NCBI GenBank assembly: GCA_013215945.1
Contig: JABSOM010000010.1
Coordinates: forward strand, 64,001 to 126,935
Origin: Campylobacteraceae bacterium
GTDB lineage: Bacteria; Campylobacterota; Campylobacteria; Campylobacterales; Arcobacteraceae
Reading direction: 5' to 3'
Length of the DNA: 62,935 nt
Every line of letters begins with the position of its first letter. The stretch's first letter is position 1. Made by a program: the position numbers and the translations under genes. This document shows positions 5,993 to 12,952 of the stretch, in pieces. The notes under the pieces are model-generated. The model did no database searches. It saw only the letters and a program-made list of their open reading frames with translations, and was not told the DNA's origin.

Positions 5993-6805
5993 ATGAATAA
6001 AAAAAGATTTGATACGTATTGTGAGTCTACTTTTAAAGCAATTATTTACATTCAAAATAATATAGAAGAAAACATTGACTTAAGTGATATAGCAAAAGAA
6101 GCAGGTTACTCCTTATATCACTTTCACAGAATTTTCAAAAAAGTCATAGGAGAGTCTCTTAAATCTTATATACGACGAATTAGGCTGGAAAATGCAGCCT
6201 TTTCTTTACAAATACAAAACAAGAGTATTATTGATATTGCACTTGACAGTGGTTTTTATACTCCTGAAACTTTTTCTAAAGCATTTAATAAATACTTTGG
6301 AAAACTTCCTTCTAAATATAAAAATAAAGTATCTTTATACAATGACTCAAATATTAACAGTATTAAAAAAATATATTTTAAAGGAAGAACCTGTATATTT
6401 AAGCGTCATACAGGCCTGTACACTAAAAGTGGCACTCCTTATGAAAAGAATTCTCTTTGGCACTCTATACTCTTACAAAGCGATTTAAAATCAAAAAATA
6501 TATTGGAGTATGAATTATTTGGAATAAGCCATGATGACCCTTCAATCACCAGTGAAAAGAATATAAGATATGACGCTTGTATTGCTGTAAAAAACGATAA
6601 AAAAACAGCTTCTTTACAGCAACAACTGCAAGAAGGTTTTTATATTGTAGCTGTTCATCAAGGTAGTTTTGAAGAATTAATTCAAAGTTATAATTATTTG
6701 ATTTATTCATGGTTAAAAAAATATAACTTTATAATGAACCACAAAATTCCTCCCTTTGAACAATTTTGTAACAAACATATAAAAATTTACATTCCTATCT
6801 TATAA
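5993..6805 (+). CDS. AraC-family regulator with C-terminal GyrI-like ligand domain
   Basis: 270 aa. Residues about 10-115 are an AraC/XylS double helix-turn-helix (LSDIAKEAGYSLYHFHRIFKK and IIDIALDSGFYTPETFSKAFNKYFG). The remainder resembles the GyrI/SbmC-like effector-binding domain (DACIAVKN...GFYIVAVHQGSFEEL...YNYLIYSWL). The arrangement, DNA-binding part first, matches Rob/SoxS-like drug-responsive activators. It directly follows the VOC gene and probably controls it and itself. The ligand cannot be deduced. Confidence 0.85.
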   Translation: MNKKRFDTYCESTFKAIIYIQNNIEENIDLSDIAKEAGYSLYHFHRIFKKVIGESLKSYIRRIRLENAAFSLQIQNKSIIDIALDSGFYTPETFSKAFNKYFGKLPSKYKNKVSLYNDSNINSIKKIYFKGRTCIFKRHTGLYTKSGTPYEKNSLWHSILLQSDLKSKNILEYELFGISHDDPSITSEKNIRYDACIAVKNDKKTASLQQQLQEGFYIVAVHQGSFEELIQSYNYLIYSWLKKYNFIMNHKIPPFEQFCNKHIKIYIPIL

Positions 6806-6845
6806 GTAAATTTTACCTCTGCTCATTATTGAACAAAACTTCTTT

Positions 6846-7031
6846 TTATTTATAGAACATAACTAAGCTAATTATTCCATAAGCAAGAAGAAGCATTGAT
6901 AATATTTTCATAAAATTTGAAAGTTTAATTAACATATTTGCTTCAATCTTACTTTGTATTTTACCTACAGCCACCAAATAAAGGTATATACCTGCAATTA
7001 TTGCTATTACGGCATCTATCATTTCGTACAT
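6846..7031 (-). CDS. Small two-helix membrane protein, unknown function
   Basis: 61 aa with two hydrophobic spans (about residues 5-22 and 40-58) separated by a short basic loop (GKIQSKIEANMLIKLSN). A good ribosome-binding site AAGGAAT precedes the ATG at 7031. No family recognised. It is convergent with the AraC gene and divergent from nhaA, so it is probably monocistronic. Confidence 0.6.
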   Translation of the reverse strand: MYEMIDAVIAIIAGIYLYLVAVGKIQSKIEANMLIKLSNFMKILSMLLLAYGIISLVMFYK

Positions 7032-7211
7032 TTTATTCCTTAAATATTATGATTTTTTTTGAAATTATAACATTTTTAAACAGCAATAAATAAAGTTATT
7101 CTGCTAAAAAAGTTTCAATTGTCAACAAAGTGTCAAGATATATGTACTTTTCAACTTTGCAAAAAAAGATTAAAATCACAATTCATAAAATAAATTATTT
7201 ACAGGAGTATT

Positions 7212-8543
7212 ATGAAAATATTTGCACCATGGGAAAAAGCATTTCAAAGAATTGCAACACCCTTTGAACATTTTATACATGCACAAACGACAACGGGTCT
7301 TGTACTAGCAGTAATGACAGTTTTGGCTCTTATTCTGGCAAACTCCCCCTTTTCGCAGACATATTTGGATTTTTTTCATATTAATATTGATTTTAAAGTT
7401 GGTTCTTGGGCTTTGTCTCATAGCCTTCATCACTGGATTAACGATGGTCTTATGGCTGTATTTTTCTTTATCATTGGGCTTGAAATAAAAAGAGAAATAA
7501 CAGCAGGAGAATTGTCAAATTTAAAAGTTGCAATCTTACCTATTATTGCAGCTATTGGGGGAATGGTATTTCCTGCTATGATTTATTTATATTTTAATTA
7601 TGATGGAGCAGGTGCAAATGGCTGGGGAATACCAATGGCTACAGACATTGCTTTTGCCATTAGTGCACTTGTTCTTTTAGGTAAAAGAGTCCCTACTGCA
7701 CTGGTGACTTTTTTAGTAGCACTTGCAATTGTTGATGATTTAGGAGCTGTTTTAGTCATCGCACTTTTTTATACAGATACTATAAATATGTTAGCTTTAG
7801 GATTGGCTGCGCTTATGTTTTTAGTCATGATAAGCTTAAACAGATTCGGAATTCATGCCATTTTGCCTTATTTTATTGTGGGATTACTTATGTGGTTTTT
7901 CATGCTGGAATCTGGGGTTCATGCCACGATTGCTGGGGTTTTAGCAGCTCTTACTATTCCTTCTAAACCCAAAAGAGCTCCCGCGTCATTTCCAGAAGAT
8001 ACAATAAAACTTATAAAAGAGTATGAAAAATATCCGAATGAAGAAAATCACGCCATGCATGAAAATCAAAAAGCGCTGATTATCAATATAAAAGATAAAA
8101 TAGATGCAATAGGAACTCCAGCAGCAAGACTTGAACATGGCCTTCATCTGCCAGTTGCACTTATTATTATTCCTCTTTTTGCTTTAGCAAATGCGGGGAT
8201 AGCCATTGATTTTTCCTCTCTTGCTACTACCGTTTTAGAACCCGTATCTCTTGGAATTATTGCAGGGCTAATAGGAGGAAAAGTACTTGGAATATTTGGT
8301 TTATCTTGGCTTGCTATAAAACTAAAAATTGCACAACTACCAAAAGGAAGCACTATGAGTCAAATATTTGGGGTGTCTTTTTTAGGTGGTATTGGTTTTA
8401 CAATGTCTATTTTTGTGGCAGATTTAGCTTTTATAAACACTCCTGAGCTAATCTTACAAGCAAAAGTCGGAATACTTTGTGCTTCTTTATTTGCTGGATT
8501 ATTTGGTTTTCTTTGGTTAAAGTATATTGCAAAGAGGGTATAA
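7212..8543 (+). CDS. nhaA: Na+/H+ antiporter NhaA
   Basis: Inner-membrane sodium/proton antiporter, 443 aa with about 12 spans. It contains the NhaA hallmark VALAIVDDLGAVLVIALFYT with the two adjacent aspartates that bind Na+, plus PMATDIAFAISAL and the C-terminal FLGGIGFTMSIFVADLAF. It is longer than the E. coli protein (388 aa) because of an insertion around residues 255-305 rich in charged residues (KEYEKYPNEENHAMHENQK). Ribosome-binding site ACAGGAG. The following two-component system starts 17 bp after the stop, so co-transcription is likely. Confidence 0.95.
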   Translation: MKIFAPWEKAFQRIATPFEHFIHAQTTTGLVLAVMTVLALILANSPFSQTYLDFFHINIDFKVGSWALSHSLHHWINDGLMAVFFFIIGLEIKREITAGELSNLKVAILPIIAAIGGMVFPAMIYLYFNYDGAGANGWGIPMATDIAFAISALVLLGKRVPTALVTFLVALAIVDDLGAVLVIALFYTDTINMLALGLAALMFLVMISLNRFGIHAILPYFIVGLLMWFFMLESGVHATIAGVLAALTIPSKPKRAPASFPEDTIKLIKEYEKYPNEENHAMHENQKALIINIKDKIDAIGTPAARLEHGLHLPVALIIIPLFALANAGIAIDFSSLATTVLEPVSLGIIAGLIGGKVLGIFGLSWLAIKLKIAQLPKGSTMSQIFGVSFLGGIGFTMSIFVADLAFINTPELILQAKVGILCASLFAGLFGFLWLKYIAKRV

Positions 8544-8560
8544 TAAATGAAAAGTGAAAT

Positions 8561-9235
8561 ATGAAAAAAGTACTGCTCGTTGAAGATGACTTAGTTTTAC
8601 AAAAGTTAATAAGTGAATATCTGGAAGAATACAGTTATTTATGCAGTGCGTTCTCAAATCCAGTAGAAGCATTACAAACATTTAGAGACAATCCAGATGA
8701 TTTTACTATTGCAATACTGGATTTAGGACTTCCTAATATGGATGGTTTTGATTTGTTTAAAAAATTAAAACAAATAAAAGACATTCCCATCATCATCTCA
8801 ACAGCAAGAGATGATATAGGAAATAAAATCTATGGTTATGAGTTAGGAACCGATGATTATCTCTCAAAACCCTATGAACCAAGAGAATTAGTACTTAGAA
8901 TTGAAGCCACCTTAAAAAGATACAATAAATCAGCATCTCTTAAAATACATGATTTAAGTATTGATATAAGCAGCTCAAGAGTTTTTTTAAATACGCTTGA
9001 AATTGAGTTTACCAAAATTGAAAAAGAAATCTTTTTATTATTTATCAATAATCTAAATAAAATCTTCTCAAGAGAAGATATAGTAAACCAAAGCTCCCTT
9101 AAACACGATACTAAAAACAGAACAGTAGATATGCATATAAGTAATATTAGATATAAGATTGATGACAATTCAAAAAAACCTAAGTATATAAAATCTATTT
9201 GGGGTATTGGGTATAAGTTTTTTTATGACAATTAG
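8561..9235 (+). CDS. OmpR-family response regulator (ArsR-like)
   Basis: 224 aa: receiver domain (acidic pocket ED at 8-10, phospho-acceptor Asp54 in AILDLGLP, Lys in YLSKPYEP) and a winged-helix output domain (about 130-222) ending in YIKSIWGIGYKFF. It pairs with the overlapping kinase. The kinase resembles the ArsS group of Campylobacterota, whose partner ArsR governs acid and nickel responses in Helicobacter. Target genes here are unknown, but a tandem 11-bp repeat lies next to the small peptide gene at 10.7 kb, and nhaA just upstream is a natural partner in ion or pH homeostasis. Confidence 0.88.
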   Translation: MKKVLLVEDDLVLQKLISEYLEEYSYLCSAFSNPVEALQTFRDNPDDFTIAILDLGLPNMDGFDLFKKLKQIKDIPIIISTARDDIGNKIYGYELGTDDYLSKPYEPRELVLRIEATLKRYNKSASLKIHDLSIDISSSRVFLNTLEIEFTKIEKEIFLLFINNLNKIFSREDIVNQSSLKHDTKNRTVDMHISNIRYKIDDNSKKPKYIKSIWGIGYKFFYDN

Positions 9236-10604
9236 AAAACAACTCTTTATCTCTTTTGCTTTAATATTAATAATTGTTGCTTTTATTATTGGCGTTTTTT
9301 TCTATACTATTTATAAACTAAACAGCATCAACTCCCAACAAAATCATCGTTATGACCAACTAATAAGAGTAAAAAAGTTAAGTGAGTTTAACAACTCTTA
9401 TTCGTGGATAGTGCTTGATGTGATAACTGATTTTGACAAAATACAAATAGTAAAACTAAGAATTAAAAAAGCCAACGCGCTTTTTAAAAACCTAAACTCT
9501 TTAAAAACTACAATTATAAATAATTCAGAATCACAAGAAGAAAAAAAGAATTTGCTTTTGATTTTTACGTATTTTGAAGAAATGCAAATAATGATAAAAG
9601 ATGATTTATATACATTAGTACTTAAGAAAAACAGTGACTTTAACGTTTTTAACAAAAAGTTTGAAAACATATATATAAATACACAAAAAGTACTCGCGCT
9701 AGAAATAAACTATCTAAAAAATAAACTAACACAAACACAAGATTTAAGAGATGCCTTTCTTGATACTATAAAACTTGAATTACTCGTTGTTTTTGTTATC
9801 TTGTTTTTACTTTCTTTTGTTATTTCTTCAAAAATCATAAGCGAGATAAAAGAGAAATTATACAGACTCAATCAAGGTGTATTGCAACTTTTTAAAAATG
9901 GAGAAAAAACGATCAAAGTAGATATTGGAGAAAACAATGAACTTTATGAAATCACCAAAAATCTTAATTCTTATTTAGAAAAACAAGCAGATATTATTCA
10001 TTCAAGAGAAGAGCTATTAAGAAACATAAGTCATGAGCTAAAAACCCCAATAGCCAAAGCAAAGTTTATGCTTGCGAAAATTAAGAATACAGAAGATAAA
10101 CAGACATTTAAGGATATAAATACCATTTTCTATGATATTGAAATGCTTACTTCAAAACTCTTAGAAAGAGAGAAACTAAACTTTGCTGTTTTAAAAAGAA
10201 GTAATTTTAAAGCAAGTTCTTTGATTCTTAAGTCTTTATCCAAGCTTTTAATTGAAGATGAAAGCAAAATAAAAGTAAACATCAAAAATGATTTTAATAT
10301 TGAAGCAGATTTTTATTACCTCAGCCTTGCACTAAAAAACTTGCTTGACAATGCCATAAAATATGCGAAAGATTTTCCTATTATAATAGAGAGTTATGAG
10401 AATACTATTTATGTCAAAAATATTTCAAATGAACTTTTAAATGATTTAATATACTATCTCCAACCTTTTACAAGAGAAGAAAACCAGCAACAAGGCCATG
10501 GTTTAGGCTTAAATATTGTTAGTAAAATTTTAGAATTACATAGTTTTGATTTAGAATATACGCATAAAGATAGCTACAATATATTTTCTATATCCTTTAA
10601 ATAA
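9225..10604 (+). CDS. ArsS-like sensor histidine kinase
   Basis: Membrane sensor kinase of 459 aa from the ATG at 9225, which overlaps the regulator stop by 11 bp. A TTG at 9207 would add six residues and is less likely. Two membrane spans (about 7-27 and 184-205) enclose a periplasmic region. Then come a HAMP-like linker, the phospho-acceptor motif NISHELKTPIAKAKF and an ATPase domain (NLLDNAIKYA, GHGLGLNIV). The SHELKTPIAK signature is that of the ArsS/HP0165 group. It phosphorylates the upstream regulator. Confidence 0.88.
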   Translation: MTIRKQLFISFALILIIVAFIIGVFFYTIYKLNSINSQQNHRYDQLIRVKKLSEFNNSYSWIVLDVITDFDKIQIVKLRIKKANALFKNLNSLKTTIINNSESQEEKKNLLLIFTYFEEMQIMIKDDLYTLVLKKNSDFNVFNKKFENIYINTQKVLALEINYLKNKLTQTQDLRDAFLDTIKLELLVVFVILFLLSFVISSKIISEIKEKLYRLNQGVLQLFKNGEKTIKVDIGENNELYEITKNLNSYLEKQADIIHSREELLRNISHELKTPIAKAKFMLAKIKNTEDKQTFKDINTIFYDIEMLTSKLLEREKLNFAVLKRSNFKASSLILKSLSKLLIEDESKIKVNIKNDFNIEADFYYLSLALKNLLDNAIKYAKDFPIIIESYENTIYVKNISNELLNDLIYYLQPFTREENQQQGHGLGLNIVSKILELHSFDLEYTHKDSYNIFSISFK

Positions 10605-10696
10605 ACATCTTTAGTTTTAATTAGGGATAAACACTACTTAGCTCCAGATTATTAGTAGTCAAGTAACAATATGAAACTAAGCACTGCTATCTTAGT

Positions 10697-10777
10697 TTAA
10701 GCTAAACTATGAGATAAAAAGCCTAAACCTATAAATAACACTGCGTCTATTATTATCAAGTTTCTTAAAAATTCCAT
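10697..10777 (-). CDS. 26-residue hydrophobic peptide
   Basis: Small ORF: ATG at 10777, stop at 10697-10699. The peptide begins MEFLRNLIII and ends GFLSHSLA, one membrane-spanning helix. A strong ribosome-binding site AAAGGAG sits seven bases upstream and a TATAAT (minus strand, 10800-10805) lies about 20 bp before that. This favours a real gene in an otherwise empty 353-bp gap. No family recognised; similar one-helix peptides often modulate transporters or kinases. Confidence 0.5.
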   Translation of the reverse strand: MEFLRNLIIIDAVLFIGLGFLSHSLA

Positions 10778-10799
10778 GATAGCTCCTTTTGATACTTTC

Positions 10800-10861
10800 A
10801 TTATAAAATACTTTTGTAAAGTTAAAAAGGTTATAGTCATTGACATATTCTTGACAAATTC
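10800..10861 (-). promoter_or_regulatory. Promoter of the 26-residue peptide gene with tandem 11-bp repeat
   Basis: Minus-strand TATAAT at 10800-10805. Further upstream two 11-mers stand in tandem: plus-strand TTGACATATTC (10840-10850) and TTGACAAATTC (10851-10861), ten of eleven positions identical. Read on the minus strand they are GAATTTGTCAA and GAATATGTCAA, centred about 57 bp upstream of the likely transcription start, the usual place for an OmpR/PhoB-type activator. Confidence 0.45.
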
Positions 10862-10957
10862 AAGTAAGATATTAAAAGCAGAACACGTGGCATGTCATTA
10901 GTGAGGAAAGAAGACTTAGTTACTTAAGTATAGGGTAATGTAGGAACTGCTTGAGAC

Positions 10958-12952
10958 TTACAAAGGGATGGAGATATGTATTTGAGCCCCGCTTAATGTT
11001 TTTTCTTTATATTTATACTCTTCATTACTTGCCCTAATAGAACCCATCATTCCTTCAACTATTAAATTATAGGTCATACTTAATCCTATACCCGTTCCTT
11101 GAAGCTGATGTTTGGTTGTAAAATAAGGTTCAAAAACTCTTTTTATAATACTCTCTTGAAAACCTTTGCCATTGTCTTTAAACGTTATATGTATCCTATT
11201 ATCTTCTAAATATGTTGTAATAAAAAGGTATTTTTGATTTTTACAAGAAGAAAAAGCATCCTTTGCATTGGAGAAAAGATTCATATAACATTGAATAAGT
11301 TCATTTGCTGAACCATAATACATAATTGAATCATCTAAGTTAGTTATTATTTCAATTTTATGTTCAATATTTAAAGAAGAAATTAAATTTAAAAATGTTT
11401 TTATATTTTCTGAAAAGTTAAAATTACTCTTTTCTCTTCGTGAAGAACTAAAGTTTCGAAAGTCATCAATCGTTTTAGATAAGTATTGTGCATTATTATT
11501 AATAATATTACAATACTCTACAATAATTTCTTTGCTTAACATATCTGTTTCTTGTCTAAGCATTAAACCCGTTGCGCAGGTTGAGACTATTGATAAAGGC
11601 TGTCTCCATTGATGTGCTATATTACCAATCATTTCTCCCATAGAAGCCATTTTTGATTGTTGAAGGATAATATCATCTTGTTCTTTTCTATTCGTAATAT
11701 CATGACCAATGCCTAAAACACCAGCAACTTCTCCTTTATCGTTAAATAATGCTTTTTTTGTAGTTTCTAAAAGAACTGTTTTATTGCTTTTGAAATAAGT
11801 AATCCACTCTTCATTAATTAATGCTTCTTGTGAATTCATTGCTCTTTTATCATGGAATCTAAAAGAATCTGCAAGCTCTTTTTTTACAAAATCATAATCT
11901 GTTTTTCCAATAATTTGATTCTCTTTTTTACCAAAAAAGAGCTCAAATTCAGGATTACAAGCCAGATATACACCTTCTTTATCTTTTAACCACAACATGT
12001 CTGGAATAGTTGCAAGAATATTCTTAAGCAGTATTTCACTCTCGCCTAATTGTTTGTTTGTTTTCTCTAATGCTCTATACGTAAGCTCTTTTTCAATTGC
12101 AATGGAGGCTAGGTTGGCATAAGAAGAAATCAATTTCAGTTCAAAGGAACTAGGTGCTTTGGGGCTGTTATTATAAATAGCAAAGGTTCCTAATATTTCT
12201 TTATTAGAAGATAAAATTGGCTCAGACCAACAAGCATGAAGATTCGCTTTTTGGGTTAATTCCAAAAATGCTGCCCAGTTTTCGTGGCTGTTAATATCTT
12301 CTACAATAACACGCTCTTTTTTATAAGCAGCTGCGCCACAAGAACCTATTTTTTCTCCAATTTCAACCCCTTCAATCGCTTCATTATAAAAAGCAGGCAA
12401 ACTGGGTGCAAAACCTTTACTTAGATGTTTTTTTTCTTCATCTAATAAAAGAATAGAACAAAGTATTTTGGGACTTCTTTTTTCAGCTAAAAATATAATA
12501 CTAAGAAGAATTGTTTCTAACTTACGCTCAATTGCAAGGGAAGAAAGAAGTTTTTCATTGTCTTCATAAATTATTTCATATTGTTTTTTTTCTGTGATAT
12601 TTCTTGCTATACAAAAGAGCCCCAGTTTTTCATTTTTATTATTATAAATAGTCTCTTTTGATGTATTAAAAAAGGAATACTCACCATTTTCTTTCAAAAA
12701 TGATTCTTCGTATCTTCTTATTTTTCCCTCTGTAATAATATCTTGATCTATTTTATTAAATTTTTCTGCATTAAGAGTATCAAATAATTCAAAATCTGTT
12801 TTATTTAAAACATCTGTTCTGTTTTTTTTAATAAAATCTAAAAATATTTTATTAAAATGTGTATATTCTCCCTTAATATTCTTAATAAATACTAAGTCTG
12901 GTATGAGTTCAACATACTCATCAATATATGGGAAGTTATTATCTATAATCAT
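10958..12952 (-). CDS. Cytoplasmic PAS-GAF-PAS sensor histidine kinase
   Basis: 664 aa without membrane spans. Order: PAS (about 8-125, including VFIKNIKGEYTHFNKIF), GAF (about 140-290, EKIGSCGAAAYKKERVIVEDI), PAS (about 305-425, MLWLKDKEGVYLACNPEF), a phospho-acceptor helix GEMIGNIAHQWRQPLSIV, and an ATPase domain (LFSNAKDAF, DNGKGF, GTGIGLSM). The HQWRQPL variant is very common in Campylobacterota. There is no adjacent response regulator, so its partner is elsewhere. Signals sensed by the GAF/PAS domains cannot be assigned. Confidence 0.88.
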   Translation of the reverse strand: MIIDNNFPYIDEYVELIPDLVFIKNIKGEYTHFNKIFLDFIKKNRTDVLNKTDFELFDTLNAEKFNKIDQDIITEGKIRRYEESFLKENGEYSFFNTSKETIYNNKNEKLGLFCIARNITEKKQYEIIYEDNEKLLSSLAIERKLETILLSIIFLAEKRSPKILCSILLLDEEKKHLSKGFAPSLPAFYNEAIEGVEIGEKIGSCGAAAYKKERVIVEDINSHENWAAFLELTQKANLHACWSEPILSSNKEILGTFAIYNNSPKAPSSFELKLISSYANLASIAIEKELTYRALEKTNKQLGESEILLKNILATIPDMLWLKDKEGVYLACNPEFELFFGKKENQIIGKTDYDFVKKELADSFRFHDKRAMNSQEALINEEWITYFKSNKTVLLETTKKALFNDKGEVAGVLGIGHDITNRKEQDDIILQQSKMASMGEMIGNIAHQWRQPLSIVSTCATGLMLRQETDMLSKEIIVEYCNIINNNAQYLSKTIDDFRNFSSSRREKSNFNFSENIKTFLNLISSLNIEHKIEIITNLDDSIMYYGSANELIQCYMNLFSNAKDAFSSCKNQKYLFITTYLEDNRIHITFKDNGKGFQESIIKRVFEPYFTTKHQLQGTGIGLSMTYNLIVEGMMGSIRASNEEYKYKEKTLSGAQIHISIPL

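Follow-up and report, generated by a model that had tools for sequence, protein, structure and literature searches.

A convergent peptide gene beside nhaA and a two-component system

The window (the whole 62,935-nucleotide stretch of DNA analyzed) carries, in plus-strand order, genes for a Na+/H+ antiporter, an OmpR-type response regulator and a sensor histidine kinase, followed by a small convergent gene (Table 1). The latter runs on the minus strand from an ATG at 10777 to a TAA ending at 10697 and encodes MEFLRNLIIIDAVLFIGLGFLSHSLA. An alternative upstream start would extend the product to 49 aa; conservation among homologues starts at MEFL. A sequence-only reading of the window had proposed a hidden 26-residue membrane peptide at this site, and homologues in 24 of 104 genomes of the family bear it out. 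The ribosome-binding site, TATAAT and tandem 11-bp repeat that it placed upstream are likewise all present and all conserved in relatives, and the peptide gene does adjoin an OmpR-type two-component system, on its 3' side, with the kinase ending at 10604.

Table 1. Features of the peptide locus (counts of 27 refer to the boxed ORFs behind the promoter, comprising 26 homologues and the ORF of genome G076)
Feature	Position	Strand	Basis or remark
Box upstream of nhaA, with TTTGCA (7156) and TAAAAT (7171)	7120..7136	+	Pattern search; same distances as in the peptide promoter
nhaA, Na+/H+ antiporter	7212..8543	+	PF06965, E 1.1e-147; TIGR00773 above cut-off
OmpR-type response regulator	8561..9235	+	PF00072, 1.7e-22; PF00486, 8.1e-17
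Sensor histidine kinase, distantly ArsS-like	9207..10604	+	PF00512 and PF02518
26-codon ORF, small single-span membrane peptide	10697..10777	-	Homologues and hydropathy
Shine-Dalgarno sequence AAAAGGAG	10783..10790	-	5 nt before the peptide ATG
-10 element TATAAT	10800..10805	-	TANNNT 51 bp after box start in 27/27
TTTACA (TTKRCA element, near-inverted TGTCAA)	10815..10820	-	36 bp after box start in 27/27
Tandem 11-bp repeat, GAATTTGTCAA and GAATATGTCAA	10840..10861 (core box 10840-10856)	-	Sequence and genome pattern search

The response regulator contains both the receiver and the Trans_reg_C domain of the OmpR/PhoB type. For the kinase, the tabulated start belongs to the longest listed ORF; translation more likely begins at the ATG at 9225. 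The sequence-only reading had called the system ArsRS-like, and this stands as a loose label: the best NCBIfam match of the kinase is indeed ArsS_fam_HK (NF038389), but its 174.5 bits lie below the curated cut-off of 250. A structure model of the kinase with low overall confidence (mean pLDDT 76.4, pTM 0.43) predicts a long helical sensor region between two hydrophobic stretches, which by eye appear to be membrane spans. Compared with the PDB, the model returned kinase cores among the 50 matches listed, and nothing clear for the sensor region among those same 50.

On the evidence of its homologues, the predicted 26-residue membrane peptide is a real gene, conserved in related bacteria. These homologues are 25-27 aa long and share M1, R/K5, N6, L7, F15, G19 and S22. 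Differences among 24 pairs of peptide genes, which are related and non-independent, are distributed 96:51:165 over the three codon positions; changes thus favor position 3, and the ORF reads as a protein gene. The frame is open in each of the 26 homologous genes examined, rather than broken in relatives as a spurious ORF might be. Defective copies also exist: G062 has a broken second copy and a boxed stub of 9 codons, and G097 has a remnant. All 27 boxed ORFs have a purine-rich site of the AAGG/AGGA type at most 18 nt from the ATG. The mean Kyte-Doolittle value of the best 19-residue window is 2.1 to 2.5 in the homologues and 3.3 in the G076 ORF. Lysine and arginine are confined to the first 8 residues in all 26 homologues, which suggests an N-in orientation in the membrane, and cysteine and tryptophan are absent from all of them. 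Searches with the peptide gave no match in Pfam, 0 matches in a PDB profile search and, in NCBIfam, a sole match to BcsF at 15.3 bits, below the cut-off of 56. No Rfam match was found in window positions 6500-11200, and a terminator scan found no site between the kinase and peptide genes.

Two neighboring ORFs have a close counterpart in G001. One, a 61-aa hydrophobic ORF (MYEMIDAVIAIIAGIYLYLVAVGKIQ...; 7031-6846, minus strand) divergent from nhaA, shows 79% identity there (L027), and a search of the other 29 loci produced no credible match. The second (12952-10958, minus strand) lies upstream of the peptide promoter and encodes, by Pfam, a PAS/GAF sensor kinase of 664 aa; its G001 counterpart is 92% identical, and the remaining loci searched yielded only weak matches of at most 39%.

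Co-occurrence of the peptide with the kinase

A first search with the single peptide sequence matched 23 of the 104 family genomes at E<=10, with chance matches among them. A second pass, with a profile built from 19 peptides, matched 25 genomes at E<=0.01, or 24 once G014 was dropped; its match overlaps a long opposite-strand ORF and has no box. We also regard as chance a second match in G093 (L105), which lacks a box, and first-pass matches in G011, G017, G032 and G064 (C51), whose 3-kb loci contain none. Kinase-positive genomes, defined by a kinase match at E<=1e-80, number 29 of the 104, and all 24 peptide genomes are among them. The profile search found no accepted match in the other 5 kinase-positive genomes or in the 75 kinase-negative ones, a class that means only a match below this threshold and includes genomes (G010, G012) with a kinase about 42-43% identical. 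The association has a Fisher p of 5e-19 (shared ancestry ignored), and kinase-positive and kinase-negative species occur within the same genera (g1, g2, g10). The kinase of G001 is 91% identical to that of the window.

Among 397 genomes of the phylum (part of the family included), the kinase search found one close relative, at 72% identity, in a Sulfurospirillum MAG outside the family (G331). This genome carries the box and the peptide as well as the kinase, bringing the peptide genomes to 25. Weak kinase relatives in G344 and G373 are 43-44% identical. Other phylum peptide matches outside the family, all of them weak at E 0.0006 or worse, were left uncounted.

The peptide lies 3' of the kinase, within 1.1 kb, in 24 of the 25 peptide genomes, G070 being the exception. 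It is convergent with the kinase in 11 and co-directional in 13, at a distance of 0 to 118 bp in 22 genomes, 506 bp in G062 and 1077 bp in G087. An nhaA of the window's type is present at 19 of these 24 loci. Five genomes (G036, G062, G094, G098, which is only 85% complete, and G331) have peptide and kinase without an NhaA above about 52% identity (E<=1e-30). The peptide therefore follows the kinase rather than the window-type NhaA, and we reject it as an obligate partner of that antiporter. The same comparison weakens the proposal that window-type NhaA is the peptide's only target.

The five kinase-only genomes differ in what they hold. G097 has a short peptide remnant, MYIVRNLTIINFRVL followed by a stop. 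In G038 and G091, a boxed nhaA (second type, 44-45% identical) follows the kinase, and no peptide match was found. G076 has, at the same place, a boxed 28-aa hydrophobic ORF (MENIGL...) without clear alignment to the peptide; we excluded it from the 25 peptide genomes and included it in the 27 boxed ORFs and the 23 peptide sites described below. An ORF of about 222 codons follows the box in G075, a genome 84% complete. Conservation of peptide and box beside the same kinase in other Arcobacteraceae had been suggested as a check on the original reading, and we find it: frame, Shine-Dalgarno sequence, box and -10 element recur.

A shared promoter layout and its candidate regulon

The peptide promoters follow a fixed layout, TGTCAA-N5-TGTCAA-N19-TTKRCA-N9-TANNNT. 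OmpR/PhoB-type response regulators bind 11-bp direct repeats, and the correlation between box and two-component system leads us to predict that the response regulator of the window binds this box. The exact core, TGTCAAN5TGTCAA, occurs at 4 sites in the 3.24-Mb genome. Two of these are intergenic, before nhaA (7120-7136, plus strand) and before the peptide (10856-10840, minus strand); the others lie inside coding genes, a lipoate-ligase gene (Pfam) and a FAD-binding-2 gene that we read as nadB. With mismatches allowed, the two-repeat core alone is near chance: 22 genome sites at up to one mismatch versus 17 for the reversed pattern, and 17 window sites at up to two mismatches versus 14.9 expected. 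Support for the promoter consequently comes from the complete layout and from its conservation. A generic sigma-70 scan of positions 6800-11000 found 14 promoter-like sites versus 22.2 in shuffles; the peptide promoter, which lacks a canonical -35, is not among the sites listed. We rejected TTTACA/TTGACA as an ordinary -35 element, since only 9 bp separate it from the -10 in the peptide promoters, and treat TTKRCA as a regulator element or an unknown one.

The three-element pattern TGTMAAN5TGTMAAN19TTKRCA was searched in 62 genomes. It gave 47 sites in 27 of 30 kinase-positive genomes and none in 32 kinase-negative genomes (of the 75 in the family); its reversed control gave none in any of the 62. 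With the shorter pattern TGTCAAGN4TGTCAA, 23 of the 30 kinase-positive genomes had a total of 36 sites, against 4 sites for its reversed control. Of the 47 three-element sites, 23 are assigned to peptide ORFs (among them the ORF of G076 and the second, broken copy of G062), 15 to window-type nhaA genes, 3 to second-type nhaA genes and 6 to others. Among 17 window-type nhaA genes retained, 16 have TTKRCA at the corresponding position and all 17 have TANNNT there; three of 20 were dropped, their best box having at least two mismatches, and the G093 gene has no box nearby. In the second nhaA type both elements are in place in 3 of 3. A small, regulated membrane peptide, as proposed in the sequence-only reading, is strongly supported by its joint conservation with the kinase and by the shared layout before nhaA.

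The box is common to nhaA of two types (18 of the 47 sites) and extends to other antiporters. In G070, the box and peptide are followed by mrpE onward, such that a boxed peptide heads the Mrp operon, and another boxed peptide precedes an NhaC-type antiporter gene (PF03553/PF13726). In G062, a peptide whose box has 1 mismatch precedes mrpE. This distribution before peptides, nhaA, Mrp and NhaC-type genes indicates that Na+/H+ antiport is probably under the control of the two-component system, whose regulon would include the peptide as a dedicated member. The match between the peptide's box and that before sodium-pump genes indicates that the peptide probably takes part in sodium balance. The nhaD genes are possible further targets: 8 genomes have possible boxes near nhaD, differing in orientation and spacing from those of peptide and nhaA. 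The box linked to nhaD in the window genome, whose nhaD is the one covered by our family check, falls inside a neighboring gene.

Several boxed sites have no antiport link, including cytochrome c genes (G004, G089), another response regulator (G067) and a 179-aa ORF (G038). The cytochrome c-like genes of L158 (G004) and L186 (G089) belong to an operon headed by the two-repeat box, which may be the target of another regulator; those of L158 include a DHC domain. The G038 site (L292, G038:C76, 5166, minus strand) is a full three-element box, and its ORF has no Pfam match. A 234-aa response-regulator paralogue with no adjoining kinase ORF lies in L291 (G070:C1:660000-675000) and L188 (G062:C6:85000-95000), adjoining the Mrp operon with its own boxed peptide. 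The broken second copy in G062 (L032, about 8011-8175, minus strand) is about 360 bp from the first.

Possible roles of the peptide

Taking together the co-occurrence of peptide, box and kinase and the promoter layout that the nhaA and peptide genes have in common, we tentatively propose an inner-membrane peptide of 25-27 residues in an antiport regulon, most likely acting on the transmembrane region of the kinase. Sodium, alkaline pH or a related signal would cause the kinase to phosphorylate the response regulator, which would bind the direct repeats and switch on nhaA-regulator-kinase and peptide together; the system would sense such a signal and induce antiporters. The peptide would insert N-in, act through its helix and, with the kinase as likeliest target, damp the signal much as MgrB does for PhoQ. 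Like MgrB, a member of the PhoQ/PhoP regulon of enterobacteria, it is predicted to be a small single-span membrane protein under the two-component system that it may regulate, and the shared promoter supports such regulon membership. According to excerpts of PMC8404706, MgrB has 47 aa and needs its periplasmic region, with two conserved cysteines, and the transmembrane residue W20. The 26 homologous genes differ: their products are 25-27 aa, without Cys or Trp and almost without a periplasmic part. This near absence of an extramembrane portion counts against action on the kinase, as do G038 and G091, with kinase and boxed nhaA and no peptide match, and the two G070 peptides and one G062 peptide, whose neighbors are Mrp or NhaC-type genes instead of the kinase. 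Co-occurrence with the kinase could also be explained by dependence on the promoter alone, whatever the peptide's target.

We favor feedback on the kinase over a direct action on antiporters, although the latter is a real, if less probable, possibility. Here the peptide would stabilize or tune antiporters that the same regulator induces (NhaA, NhaC-type and Mrp), much as MgtS acts on MgtA and KdpF on Kdp. The boxed peptides before the Mrp operon, mrpE (1-mismatch box) and the NhaC-type gene fit this, as does the presence of window-type nhaA at 19 of 24 loci linked to the two-component system. Against it, a single partner would have to serve antiporters of unrelated families, five genomes with peptide and two-component system lack a close NhaA, and G038 and G091 have a boxed second-type nhaA and no peptide match. 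That helices of about 26 residues serve as a shared brake or stabilizer across these unrelated families under one two-component system is an unlikely idea. KdpF and MgtS are single-span peptides of about 30 aa in cation-homeostasis regulons that act on a transporter, and the peptide resembles them in size class and regulatory logic. It differs from them in its linkage to several Na+/H+ antiporter families and their presumed regulator; it has no family match, and its neighbors are nhaA, response regulator and kinase genes rather than kdp or mgt. On the features compared, the peptide belongs to none of the MgrB, MgtS and KdpF families.

A general membrane effect with no specific partner, on ion gradients or toxin-like upon overexpression, is quite improbable. 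Size and hydropathy do resemble those of single-span toxic peptides such as DinQ (as described in part of PMC3567139), but the ordered conservation of R/K5, N6, G19 and S22, the constant linkage to one two-component system and the dedicated promoter argue otherwise. Type I toxin peptides are paired with an antisense RNA antitoxin, and the one search bearing on such an RNA, against Rfam in positions 6500-11200, gave no match. Least credible is a leader peptide or regulatory RNA whose transcript controls the next gene, as a short intergenic ORF might suggest: at 11 of 24 loci that gene is the kinase, in convergent orientation, and elsewhere it varies, and changes favor codon position 3. An open frame alone proves little, since 20 of 27 sequences also have an open frame in one antisense reading.

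The peptide would constitute a new family among ultra-short membrane regulators, with a defined promoter. In Vibrio cholerae, DbfQ is a small protein encoded, like the peptide, beside a two-component system (DbfRS), whose kinase it acts on (PMC12714742); unlike a 26-aa membrane helix, DbfQ resides in the periplasm once its signal peptide has been cleaved. Helicobacter pylori ArsRS also pairs an OmpR-like regulator with an ArsS-type kinase, and its phosphorylated ArsR activates acid-acclimation genes (PMC9449129). By comparison, the kinase of the window falls below the ArsS equivalog cut-off and the presumed targets are Na+/H+ antiporters; no such peptide is mentioned in the available part of that paper. 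Among the matches listed from the titles and abstract starts of openly licensed literature, we found no such Arcobacter antiporter and small-protein system, though prior publication is possible. Our results point to a two-component regulator of Na+/H+ antiport in Campylobacterota. Escherichia coli likewise has a dedicated regulator of nhaA, which according to part of PMC6307784 is the LysR-type NhaR, whereas the candidate here is a two-component system.
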